A stretch of 61,044 nt of DNA from Natrinema gari JCM 14663 (GTDB lineage: Archaea; Halobacteriota; Halobacteria; Halobacteriales; Natrialbaceae). The position numbers and the translations under genes were made by a program. The DNA lies in contig NZ_AOIJ01000039.1 in NCBI RefSeq assembly GCF_000337175.1, positions 1 to 61,044 on the forward strand. Reading direction: 5' to 3'. The notes under the pieces are model-generated. The model was not told the DNA's origin, did not search any database, and was given only the letters and a program-made list of their open reading frames with translations. Shown here piece by piece: positions 46,849 to 50,702 of the stretch (within the stretch, counting starts at the first letter, position 1; each line of letters opens with the position of its first letter).

Positions 46849-47339
46849 AGACGCCGTCCTACCACGAGCAGCTACAAAACACTCACACGTGGTCCGGCTC
46901 GTCCGCTCCGCCGACGGCAGGCGTTCACCGGTTCTATCGTGACTCGAGGGGATGGAAGCACCGACGTTCGTTCCGGCGCAGGTCGGATCGATACCTGTGG
47001 TTGGACGAATGCCAAGTTATGTATTCATAACTCACTGAGATATGTATTCCAGAGGCTGATGGGGGAGGGGGGATGACCGAACGTCTATCGACGACCGCGC
47101 GCCAGCGCTCGCGGGTGCCGGCCGCGGCGGAACGGAGTATAATTCGCGGGGAATATTCGAGAATCGAGCCGAACGGCGAACTCCATCTAAACAGTACTAG
47201 GAGATACGATCAGATAATAGGTCGGTGCCGTCGTGCGGTTTTGTGATTGCCATGGTCGATGATGTTTAATTTGGCCGCCGAACATCGTTGGTTGCAGCGG
47301 TAGTTTTATATACATGGTCGCACCTCGGGTTGAGACACA
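46849..47339. promoter_or_regulatory. Long region upstream of leuA
   Basis: 491 bp without a convincing gene. It contains the inverted repeat AGTTATG-TATT-CATAACT (47015-47032), a second AT-rich stretch near 47270 (TGATGTTTAATTTGG), and the TATA box TTTTATATA (47304-47312), centred 32 bp before ATG 47340. The repeat lies about 280 bp ahead of the TATA and could serve another promoter, including that of the ferritin-like gene. Confidence 0.5.
47304..47312 (+). promoter_or_regulatory. leuA TATA box
   Basis: TTTTATATA. Its spacing to ATG 47340 (about 32 bp from centre) fits a leaderless transcript, and it overlaps the vicinity of the in-frame ATG 47314, which argues against that ATG as the start. 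Confidence 0.7.
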
Positions 47340-48570
47340 ATGTCTTCACAAGACAGCCCATCCTCTGATACCAATCAGGGGGGTCGAGTTCTTCCAGGGC
47401 ACGTTAGATTCAACTGACGAAATAGAGTCAGCACGTGTCTTCGATACGACCCTCCGGGACGGCGAACAGTCGCCCGGCACTTCGTTCTCATACGACGATA
47501 AACGGCAGATCGCGTCCGTTCTGGACGAGATGGGAACCCACGTCATCGAGGCCGGGTTCCCCGTCAACTCCGACGCGGAGTTCGAAGCCGTTCGTGATAT
47601 CGCTTCGGCAACGAGTTCGACGACCTGTGGGCTCGCCCGCGTCGTCGACGGTGACATCGAAGCGGCCCTCGATTCCGGCGTCGAGATGGTGCACACGTTC
47701 GTCAGCACCAGCGACGTCCAGATCGAGGATTCGATGCACGCCACCCGGGAGGAAGTCGTACAGCGCGCAGTCGAGTCGGTCGAACGCATCACCGAGGCAG
47801 GCGTAACCTGTATGTTCTCGCCGATGGATGCGACTCGAACCGACGAGGAGTACCTGCTCGAGGTGATCGAAGCGGTCACCGAGGCGGGTACCGACTGGAT
47901 CAACGTTCCCGACACCTGCGGCGTCGCCACGCCGGGTCGGTTCCGGGCCATGATCGAAAAGATCTGTGCCCACACCGACGCGCGGGTCGACGTTCACGCC
48001 CACGACGACTTCGGGCTGGCCACCGCGAACGCCCTGGCCGGCATCGAAGCGGGCGCGGCGCAGGCGCAGGTCTCGGTCAACTCGATCGGCGAGCGGGCCG
48101 GCAACGCCGCCTACGAGGAGTACGTGATGGCCGTCGAGTCGCTCTACCAGTGTGACACCGGGATCGACACGACGCGCATCGCCGAACTCTCGGAGATCGT
48201 CGCGGAGAAAAGCGGCATGGACACGCCCGGCAACAAGCCGGTCGTCGGCGATAACGCCTTCTCCCACGAGAGCGGTATCCACGCCGCCGGCGTCATCGAA
48301 AACTCCGATACGTTCGAACCCGGCGTCATGACTCCCGAGATGGTCGGTGCCAAGCGCCGACTGGTCATGGGGAAACACACGGGTACCCACTCGGTCCGCG
48401 AGCGACTCGTCGAGCGCGGCTTCGAGCCTACCGACGAACAGGTCCGAGCGGTCACTCGTCGCGTCAAGGACTACGGGGCCGAGAAGCGCCGCGTCACCGT
48501 CGACGACCTCGAGCGCTTCGCCGAGGAGGCTGACATCGACCGTCAGTCCCAGGAGGAGGTGCGCGTCTGA
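47340..48570 (+). CDS. leuA: 2-isopropylmalate synthase-type enzyme, with an apparent frameshift near the start
   Basis: The long frame carries VEFFQGTLDSTDEIESARVF, TTLRDGEQSPGTSF, AGFPVNSDAEFE, HAHDDFGLATANALAG and GNKPVVGDNAFSHESGIHA, all of the LeuA/CimA/NifV family. An in-frame ATG at 47314 lies inside or next to the TATA box and is unlikely. ATG 47340, 32 bp after the TATA, starts MSSQDSPSSDTNQG and would join the main frame if the G6 run at 47378-47383 had five Gs. Condenses an acyl-CoA with a 2-oxoacid; with leuB, leuC and leuD nearby 2-isopropylmalate synthase is likeliest, citramalate synthase the alternative. Confidence 0.85.
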
Positions 48571-48650
48571 GCGATGTCCGCCCCGTTTGCCACCGTTCGC
48601 GAGCCCTGGCTATCGCGTTCGAGCGATCGGAGCCGGATGACTCGTAAGGG

Positions 48651-48658
48651 TTATATCC
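48651..48658 (+). promoter_or_regulatory. TATA box of the ilvBNC-leuCD operon
   Basis: TTATATCC, centred about 29 bp before the ATG of the leader ORF at 48683, so transcription probably begins at or just before that ATG. The mRNA would have a leader of about 215 nt before ilvB. Confidence 0.6.
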
Positions 48659-48682
48659 CTCGAGGAAGCTATGTAGACAGTA

Positions 48683-48769
48683 ATGACGGTCCGCGCTTCC
48701 CTGTCGACATCCGCACAGGCGGTCGACAGCAGCGCGCTCGCCTCGATTCGTATTGTAGGGGCACTATAG
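48683..48769 (+). CDS. Candidate leader peptide of the ilv operon, 28 codons
   Basis: ATG 48683 sits where a leaderless start is expected after the TATA at 48651. The 28-residue frame ends ASIRIVGAL, with Ile, Ile, Val and Leu in its last eight residues, followed by TAG. The stop lies in the loop of a 6-bp hairpin (48757-48774). This matches the layout of branched-chain amino-acid leader peptides in bacteria; such control is not established in archaea. The ilvB start is 128 bp further on. Confidence 0.5.
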   Translation: MTVRASLSTSAQAVDSSALASIRIVGAL

Positions 48770-48774
48770 CCCCT
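48757..48774 (+). promoter_or_regulatory. Hairpin over the leader-ORF stop codon
   Basis: AGGGGC-ACTATA-GCCCCT, 6-bp stem and 6-nt loop; the leader TAG begins in the loop. A ribosome stalled on the Ile/Val/Leu codons just upstream would cover or free this stem. No U-run follows, so it is not a classical intrinsic terminator. Confidence 0.5.
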
Positions 48775-48870
48775 CATCTAGTCCTTCATCACTTCAGTCC
48801 CGAATTCGCCGCATCGTTCTCCGAGCGATCAGCAATCCCCCAGATGACACACTACCGTACACCACCCGAT

Positions 48871-48890
48871 CGCCGGCCCACGGCGGGAGG
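48871..48890 (+). promoter_or_regulatory. ilvB ribosome binding site next to a small hairpin
   Basis: GGAGG at 48886-48890 is spaced 6 nt from the ilvB ATG (48897), a good Shine-Dalgarno. It is directly preceded by CGCCG-GCCCA-CGGCG (48871-48885), a 5-bp hairpin that could hold the site near a stem. ilvB is thus translated from a leadered mRNA. Confidence 0.5.
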
Positions 48891-48896
48891 CAACCG

Positions 48897-50702
48897 ATGA
48901 GCGAACGCGCAGCAAAGATTCCGCCAGCGGAAGAGGAACAGGACGGCGACCCGATCACCGACAGCGCCGCGCCCGACGCGGTCGCCGAGACCGCCGACTC
49001 CGAGACGACCGACCCCGTGACCACGGGTGCCGAGGCCGTCGTCCGCGCATTGGAGAACGCGGGCGTCGAGTACGCCTTCGGCGTGCAAGGCGGGGCGATC
49101 ATGCCCGTCTACGACGCCCTCTACGATTCGGACATTCGGCACGTCACGATGGCCCACGAGCAGGGCGCGGCCCACGCGGCCGACGCCTACGGCATCGTCT
49201 CGGGCGAGCCGGGCGTCTGTCTCGCGACCTCTGGACCCGGCGCGACCAACCTCGTGACCGGCATCGCCGACGCCGACATGGACTCGGACCCGCTGCTCGC
49301 GCTGACGGGCCAGGTCCCGACGGAGTTCGTCGGCAACGACGCCTTCCAGGAAACCGACACGACCGGCGTCACGACCCCGGTCACGAAGGACAACACCTTC
49401 GCGAGCGATTCGGACCGCGTCGGCAGCGACGTCAGCGAGGCCTTCGCCCTCGCTCGCGAGGGCCGTCCGGGACCGACTCTGGTCGACCTGCCGAAAGACG
49501 TCACGAACGGCGAGACCGACCGCGAGCCCGACGCCCCGACCGTTCCGGACACTTATCAGGTCCAAGAACGGGCGGAGTCGGACCTCGTCGCCGCGGCGGC
49601 CGAGCGGATCGAGAACGCGTCCCGTCCGGTCATGCTGCTCGGCGGCGGCGTCATCAAGGGCGACGCCACCGACGCCTGCCGCGAGTTCGCCATCGAACAC
49701 GAGATCCCGGTCATCACCACGATGCCCGGCATCGGCGCGTTCCCGGAGGATCACGAACTCTCCCTCGAGATGGCGGGCATGCACGGCACCGGCTACGCCA
49801 ACATGGCGGTCACCCACTGTGATACGCTGCTCGGGATCGGAACCCGGTTCGACGACCGCCTGACTGGCGGCATCGAGACCTTCGCGCCCGACGCGGAGGT
49901 CATCCACGTCGACATCGATCCCGCCGAAATCTCGAAGAACATCTACGCTGACTATCCGCTGGTCGGCGACGCCGAAACGGTCGTCGAGCAGTTAGCCGCA
50001 GCCGTCGACGAGTCGCCCGAAGCCACGAAGTGGCGCGCCCAGTGCCAGCAGTGGAAATCCGACTACTCGATGGCCTACGACGCGCCGGAGGACAAGCCGG
50101 TCCAACCGGAGTTCGTCGTCGAGGCCTTGGACGAGGCCACGGGCGACCGCGCGATCGTCACCACCGGTGTCGGCCAACACCAGATGTGGGCCTGCCAGTA
50201 CTGGACCTACACCGAGCCACGAACCTGGGTCTCGAGTCACGGGCTGGGCGCGATGGGGTACGGACTGCCCTCGGCGATCGGCGCGCGGCTCGCGGCCGAC
50301 GACGATCAGGAGGTCGTCTGCATCGACGGCGACGGCTCGTTCCTGATGACGCTGCAGGGGCTGTCCGTCGCCGTCCGCGAGGAACTCGACATCACCGTCG
50401 CCGTGCTCAACAACGAGTACATCGGCATGGTTCGACAGTGGCAGGACGCCTTCTTCGACGGCCGCCACTCCGCGTCGGACTACGGCTGGATGCCCGAATT
50501 CGATAAACTCGCAGAGGCGTTCGGCGCTGAAGGGTTCCGGATCGACGACTACGATGACGTCGCCGACACGATCGATGCCGCGATCGCCTACGACGGCCCC
50601 TCGGTGATCGACGTCCACATCGATCCCGACGCGAACGTCTACCCGATGGTTCCGAGCGGCGGCGACAACGGCCAGTTCGCGCTGGCGGAGGAGCAGCTAT
50701 GA
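48897..50702 (+). CDS. ilvB: Acetolactate synthase large subunit
   Basis: 601 residues. The ThDP glutamate region is MAHEQGAAHAADAYG; SGPGATNLVTGIADADMDS, the FAD region and the C-terminal ThDP-Mg site VCIDGDGSFLMTLQGLSVAV...VAVLNNEYIGMVRQWQ are present. It makes 2-acetolactate or 2-aceto-2-hydroxybutyrate, the first common step in Val, Leu and Ile synthesis. The first 40 residues are an acidic haloarchaeal extension. The stop overlaps the ilvN ATG (ATGA at 50699). Confidence 0.97.
   Translation: MSERAAKIPPAEEEQDGDPITDSAAPDAVAETADSETTDPVTTGAEAVVRALENAGVEYAFGVQGGAIMPVYDALYDSDIRHVTMAHEQGAAHAADAYGIVSGEPGVCLATSGPGATNLVTGIADADMDSDPLLALTGQVPTEFVGNDAFQETDTTGVTTPVTKDNTFASDSDRVGSDVSEAFALAREGRPGPTLVDLPKDVTNGETDREPDAPTVPDTYQVQERAESDLVAAAAERIENASRPVMLLGGGVIKGDATDACREFAIEHEIPVITTMPGIGAFPEDHELSLEMAGMHGTGYANMAVTHCDTLLGIGTRFDDRLTGGIETFAPDAEVIHVDIDPAEISKNIYADYPLVGDAETVVEQLAAAVDESPEATKWRAQCQQWKSDYSMAYDAPEDKPVQPEFVVEALDEATGDRAIVTTGVGQHQMWACQYWTYTEPRTWVSSHGLGAMGYGLPSAIGARLAADDDQEVVCIDGDGSFLMTLQGLSVAVREELDITVAVLNNEYIGMVRQWQDAFFDGRHSASDYGWMPEFDKLAEAFGAEGFRIDDYDDVADTIDAAIAYDGPSVIDVHIDPDANVYPMVPSGGDNGQFALAEEQL

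Follow-up and report, generated by a model that had tools for sequence, protein, structure and literature searches.

Across the class Halobacteria, the branched-chain amino-acid gene ilvB is preceded by a short open reading frame that carries a fixed pair of branched-chain codons directly at the foot of a conserved hairpin, and this frame (uORF1) is very probably a codon-sensing leader peptide. The pattern of conservation, read from sequence alone, is strong support for leader peptides in which ribosome stalling reports on the supply of amino acids, and it is best read as a class of ribosome-mediated attenuators in Archaea. A preliminary description of the locus stated that leader-peptide attenuation had not been established in Archaea, and among open-access PMC papers no report of leader peptides or attenuation in this domain, and thus none of such a class, was found. 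Attenuation by leader peptides is a textbook bacterial mechanism, and transcription and translation in Archaea share one compartment and can be coupled. With a class-wide, codon-specific leader before ilvB and an independent one before pheS, the question becomes directly testable in Haloferax volcanii, and the system would provide an in vivo assay of transcription-translation coupling and of hairpin- or FttA-type termination in Archaea.

Architecture and distribution of the ilvB leader

The window, i.e., the whole stretch of 61,044 nucleotides of Natrinema gari JCM 14663 that was analysed, carries the leader on its forward strand, in the intergenic stretch between the end of leuA at 48570 and the start of ilvB at 48897. 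ilvB (48897-50702) encodes the large subunit of acetolactate synthase (601 aa) and is the first gene downstream of the leader, followed, according to a reading of the open reading frames, by ilvN, ilvC, leuC and leuD. The gene is 97-98% identical to its Natrinema pallidum/altunense counterpart and has one close orthologue per genome in 29/29 genomes of the genus. Within 48560-48960, no relevant hit to an Rfam covariance model came up even when E values of up to 10 were allowed, and a scan of the whole window returned a tRNA only, with no T-box, riboswitch or bacterial leader RNA.

The preliminary description had proposed a TATA box placing the transcript start at the ATG of a 28-codon frame that ends in ASIRIVGAL, and both elements are present. 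The TATA box TTATAT lies at 48651-48656, and uORF1 (MTVRASLSTSAQAVDSSALASIRIVGAL) extends over 48683-48769, from the ATG at 48683-48685 to the TAG at 48767-48769. Among aligned leaders, the TTAT 32 nt before the ATG and the AA upstream of it are conserved, and of 81 leaders most place TATA box and ATG exactly 32 nt apart. When the first ATG at 24-40 nt past a TATA-like box was chosen blind to frame, it was in frame with the conserved core in 73/76 cases; across Halobacteria, the start set by the promoter thus retains an in-frame ATG. Judged by this spacing, uORF1 is probably translated by leaderless initiation.

The distribution of the element was followed with the core pattern ATYGTAGGGG-N(2-14)-CCCC and, as a control, the reversed pattern, and the ilvB loci themselves were taken from named GTDB genomes (80 loci), 29 genomes of the genus and a class-wide sample. 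The 4.0 Mb genome contains a single copy of the core (reversed control, none), and the core is present in 280/292 of the sampled genomes of the class, mostly in one copy each, more than chance would give; in the leader collections it is located upstream of ilvB. Outside Halobacteria, a sample of genomes of the phylum gave scattered matches only, roughly as frequent as those of the reversed control. The 12 genomes of the class that lack the strict pattern comprise eight variants, three deep-branching genomes without a leader and one whose contig is too short (L155). The variants read GTA GTA GGGG (L144, L145), GTC GTA GGGG (L151), CTC GTA GGGG (L150), ATT GTAGGGCC...GGCCCTAC (L146) and ATT CGC GTA CGGGCC...GGCCC, which forms a different stem (L147, L148); in L149 the 3' arm is shorter. 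In the three deep-branching genomes (L152, L153 and L154, of families f5 and f11), ilvB is present and both the leader ORF and the GTAGGGG hairpin are absent. Here ilvB stands directly behind an apparent leuA, and the element may therefore date from the acquisition of a separate promoter by ilvB.

Proposed sensor codons and the P2 hairpin

The proposed sensor consists of the codons ATT (Ile) and GTA (Val) at 48752-48757 and was compared in 169 unique leaders. The first codon is ATT in 129 and ATC in 34 of them, with GTC and GTA twice each and ATA and CTC once each; the regular expression used allowed any NTN codon at this position, so that Phe or Met could have appeared, and neither did. The second codon is GTA in 169/169, as the expression itself required; a looser search admitting any GTN, CTN or ATH codon again found GTA alone adjacent to GGGG. 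These codons are rare in ilvB itself: across the ilvB genes of these loci, GTA makes up 0.4% of Val and ATT 5.7% of Ile codons. The 5' arm of the hairpin overlaps the GTA codon, and GTA is retained even in the 59/166 leaders where no pair is possible between its A and the base following the 3' arm; pairing alone consequently does not explain its fixation. Where the first sensor position departs from Ile, in the exceptional genomes L144, L145, L150 and L151, it changes to a Val or Leu codon, and in L147 and L148 (IRVRAAMAH) Ile and Val are still in frame despite the loss of the following Gly.

The remainder of uORF1 drifts. Its body evolves close to neutrality (dN/dS-like value of about 0.7), the residue preceding the sensor and all residues after the Gly are variable, and the final residue may be L, F, S, V, A, N or Y, or be absent. 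In the alignment, the branched-chain codons and the hairpin are thus conserved while the rest varies, as the preliminary description had expected of a leader peptide. Of the terminal Ile/Val/Leu codons that it had put forward, the ATT GTA pair is the conserved part; the upstream Ile and the terminal Leu do not belong to the sensor, which is an Ile/Val-Val pair with, rarely, a Leu codon in first place. The likeness to bacterial ilv leader peptides that it had noted is supported by the conservation among the 169 leaders, and attenuation is the predicted mechanism. The frame itself is conserved, as it would be if uORF1 encoded a functional small protein; the near-neutral body, together with N-terminal sequences that are unrelated between families and lengths ranging from about 16 to 42 residues, makes such a function barely credible.

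Stalling could in principle also be brought about by the nascent chain, as in the case of TnaC, in which an arrest peptide stalls the ribosome for tryptophan. uORF1 would then be an arrest peptide whose IVG-A/V end responds to the binding of a small molecule and not to empty A-site codons, and IVG with A or V is indeed conserved directly before the stop codon in most leaders. We regard this as very unlikely, given the variants VVGA, LVGA, IVGPA and IRVRAAMAH, the extensions by four or five residues, and a constraint that acts on synonymous choice (GTA, mostly ATT) and not on residues only.

The hairpin that follows the sensor, P2, is formed in the window by AGGGGC (48757-48762) and GCCCCT (48769-48774) around the loop ACTATA. 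The stop codon of uORF1 spans this loop and the first base of the 3' arm, so that a direct reading bears out the earlier placement of the stop within a 6-bp hairpin; the comparison of leaders refines the element to GTAGGGG...CCCC and adds a second short ORF, coupled to ilvB, that the preliminary description did not include. In nearly all folded leaders P2 has a pair probability near 1, and its median stability is -11.5 kcal/mol vs -5.2 in control windows. The central pairs hardly vary, and covariation is confined to the inner pair (C-G to U-A or U-G) and to L146-L148, of which L146 shows compensatory changes and L147 and L148 keep the hairpin as a different stem.

Since GTAGGGG is invariant at the nucleotide level and belongs to an inverted repeat, ATTGTAGGGG...CCCC might instead be the binding site of a regulator on RNA or DNA, with the ORF being incidental. 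The loop length, and with it the spacing of the arms, varies between 5 and 9 nt across leaders, unlike in a dimeric operator, and the reading as a DNA operator was rejected on this ground. The position within a transcribed leader, an ATG that stands in frame where the promoter would place the start in all but three of the leaders compared, and first-codon substitutions that stay within the codon class likewise speak against a regulator site, which we consider unlikely.

P2 is followed by a pyrimidine-rich tract (48774-48800), which is G-poor throughout the class and in the window contains one G, at 48781. The longest G-free run within 45 nt after P2 has a median of 17 nt, compared to 5 nt in controls, and a U-rich element is found after P2 in 86/118 leaders, with 67.6 +/- 4.0 expected from shuffles. 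TTTC or TTTT at 8-28 nt occurs in only 45/168 leaders, and the T stretch of haloarchaeal terminators is thus partially represented and far from universal. No conserved alternative pairing that could serve as a mutually exclusive antiterminator was found among the leaders. An upstream hairpin in the body of uORF1, P1, is not claimed: the folds look strong, but their mean z of -1.15 against -0.25 to -0.46 in controls is a tendency only, and an ungapped alignment gave no consensus beyond four pairs and no positional covariation. In Natrialbaceae leaders, a conserved GCAYCGTTTTC-like element was additionally seen downstream of P2, at about 48803-48823 of the window and some 25 nt before the start of the second short ORF.

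Proposed mechanism and the output step

We consider it likely that the leader acts in cis as an attenuator in which ribosome stalling serves to sense charged tRNA-Ile and tRNA-Val. A ribosome would start at the 5' AUG of uORF1 and, if Ile or Val is short, stall on AUU/GUA, where it would cover the 5' arm GUAGGGG, keep P2 unfolded and allow the operon to be read on. With ample supply, the ribosome would terminate at the stop codon in the loop and leave, P2 would fold, and output would fall. It counts against this scheme that a ribosome at the stop codon would cover P2 as well, so that its release would have to be quick relative to RNA polymerase.

The output step is the weaker part of this proposal. 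It may consist of premature termination of transcription just after P2, brought about by the hairpin and the pyrimidine- and U-bearing tract, and we lean towards a transcriptional rather than a translational output. Hairpins can terminate transcription in Haloferax, with 59% termination for one tested in vivo, and intergenic termination sites in this genus favour T stretches with a terminal C (PMC7237163). Termination that depends on FttA prefers U-rich RNA (PMC11616081), a preference which fits the tract after P2 only in part.

The second short ORF, uORF2 (48844-48900; 18 codons, MTHYRTPPDRRPTAGGNR), ends in a TGA that overlaps the ilvB start as ATGA. The ilvB start at 48897 and its Shine-Dalgarno sequence GGGAGG (48885-48890) are as first described, and a G-rich block is conserved 8-12 nt before ilvB. 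For the frame that terminates in the overlap with ilvB, an in-frame ATG is present in 68/74 leaders, compared to 1/74 and 3/74 for the other two frames, and in 64/68 this is the first ATG after the stop of uORF1, mostly at a distance of 62-77 nt. Between the two ORFs, 4 intervening ATGs were seen vs 35 expected. The same arrangement recurs in 43/60 further loci from other families, and in most of the remaining ones a comparably placed first ATG begins a long frame resembling ilvB itself. The uORF2 peptide sequence is not conserved, in keeping with a role in translational coupling, and uORF2 may return ribosomes to the transcript before ilvB. A second promoter before uORF2 was rejected, the only candidate being a degenerate, C-rich, T-rich element just 24-27 nt or so before its ATG. 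Natrialbaceae leaders also carry, directly 5' of the ilvB Shine-Dalgarno sequence, a short hairpin CGCCG...CGGCG (48870-48890 in the window) whose loop and pairs change between species.

This arrangement also bears on a possible output at the level of translation, in which the same sensor is retained and the formation of P2, or termination on uORF1, gates the passage of ribosomes to the first AUG, some 70 nt further on, i.e., that of uORF2 or ilvB, with uORF2 feeding into ilvB via ATGA. The near-constant position of the first ATG, which starts either uORF2 or ilvB, and the near absence of ATGs before it are in line with such gating, as are a G-poor tract without much structure and the weakness of the T stretches; moreover, leaderless poly-cysteine ORFs of mycobacteria are reported to act by translational attenuation, as cited in PMC13236596. 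On the other hand, no conserved pairing was found between the tail of uORF1 and the regions of ilvB and uORF2 (median z of -0.29, from 41 leaders, and -0.05), and reinitiation alone would lower ilvB expression upon stalling on uORF1, the opposite of what a biosynthetic operon calls for. Sequestration of the ilvB or uORF2 region by the uORF1 tail was rejected as a class-wide feature, striking complementarity being limited to some Natrialbaceae, e.g., L028 (z -4.4). Translational control is possible rather than probable, and it is kept as a serious rival because the U-rich element after P2 is far from universal.

Relation to known attenuators and the pheS leader

The attenuators of the ilvBNC operons of Corynebacterium and Mycobacterium resemble the haloarchaeal leader in a leader ORF at or next to the transcript start, upstream of ilvB, and in branched-chain control codons, including GUA, that adjoin or overlap a hairpin (PMC11857589; PMC13236596; PMC1262725). 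In C. glutamicum, a single nucleotide separates the start of IlvL, whose control codons are CUU and GUA, from that of the transcript (PMC11857589), and the ilvB1 leader of M. tuberculosis encodes LVVI with GUA (PMC13236596). The bacterial systems comprise an antiterminator and a poly-U terminator, whereas the haloarchaeal leader has a single conserved hairpin of weak downstream U content, a second ORF coupled to ilvB, and archaeal transcription and translation machineries. Since neither an antiterminator nor a clear terminator was found, membership in the classical attenuator family is not claimed. Caution against an attenuator reading also comes from Streptomyces coelicolor, where replacement of the candidate codons in a similar ilvB leader was reported to be without effect (PMC1262725). 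The poly-cysteine ORFs mentioned above, as cited in PMC13236596, share with uORF1 that a leaderless short ORF senses the cognate amino acid before a biosynthetic operon; the ilvB leader differs from them in that its ORF has no conserved pairing with the initiation region of ilvB.

A 26-codon uORF before pheS (HVO_2948) lies on a mapped transcript of Haloferax volcanii (Table 2 in Babski et al., PMC4983044); this list of 5' UTR uORFs includes pheS and not ilvB and proposes no function, cognate codons or attenuation for its entries. At haloarchaeal pheS loci, short ORFs end in GFGFFFAR, GFGFFFTAA, GFGFFFDP and similar sequences, and a TATA-like T-run lies about 30 nt before their ATG. In enteric bacteria, a Phe-rich leader peptide, PheM, precedes the pheST genes of phenylalanyl-tRNA synthetase and controls them by attenuation. 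The haloarchaeal GFGFFF leader shares the Phe-rich leader before pheS and differs in the TATA-like box about 30 nt from the ORF and in the folds downstream.

Whole loci were scanned for short ORFs that follow a TATA-like box and carry no fewer than three Phe among their last eight residues. Such ORFs were found at 22/30 pheS and 4/30 trpS loci and at none of the ilvB (0/80), trpD, ileS, hisG or trpC loci (0/30 each). In several of the genomes pheS lies close to trpS, and the four trpS matches may hence be the same pheS leader. In the same scan, no cognate leader was found before trpD, trpS or trpC (Trp), ileS (Ile/Leu/Val) or hisG (His). The scan discriminates, given this absence at the trp, ileS and hisG genes and the match between amino acid and gene in both positive cases, and the mechanism is accordingly not general to the amino-acid genes of these organisms. 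It seems reasonably likely that haloarchaea employ codon-sensing leaderless ORFs, at ilvB for Ile/Val and at pheS for Phe, to couple ribosome stalling to operon output. If true, this would constitute an ancient, class-wide attenuation system in Archaea, which in the ilvB case is built from one hairpin together with a coupled second ORF.

A Leu-type leader before leuA was sought and not found. Upstream of the leuA TATA box, at about 47185-47250 of the window, there is a conserved stretch (taatagg...cgttg.tgtc.tgcggttttc), also present in loci L003-L063, which has no short Leu-rich ORF and no Rfam match and is possibly a small RNA or a regulatory site. At the pheS loci (L217-L245; e.g., L227 on contig C51 of the source genome, near 66 kb), the GFGFFF ORF lies in most cases about 105-190 nt before pheS. 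Downstream of the ORF, the pheS leaders carry a conserved GAAACCG, which in several of them can pair with the Phe codons (CGGUUUC).
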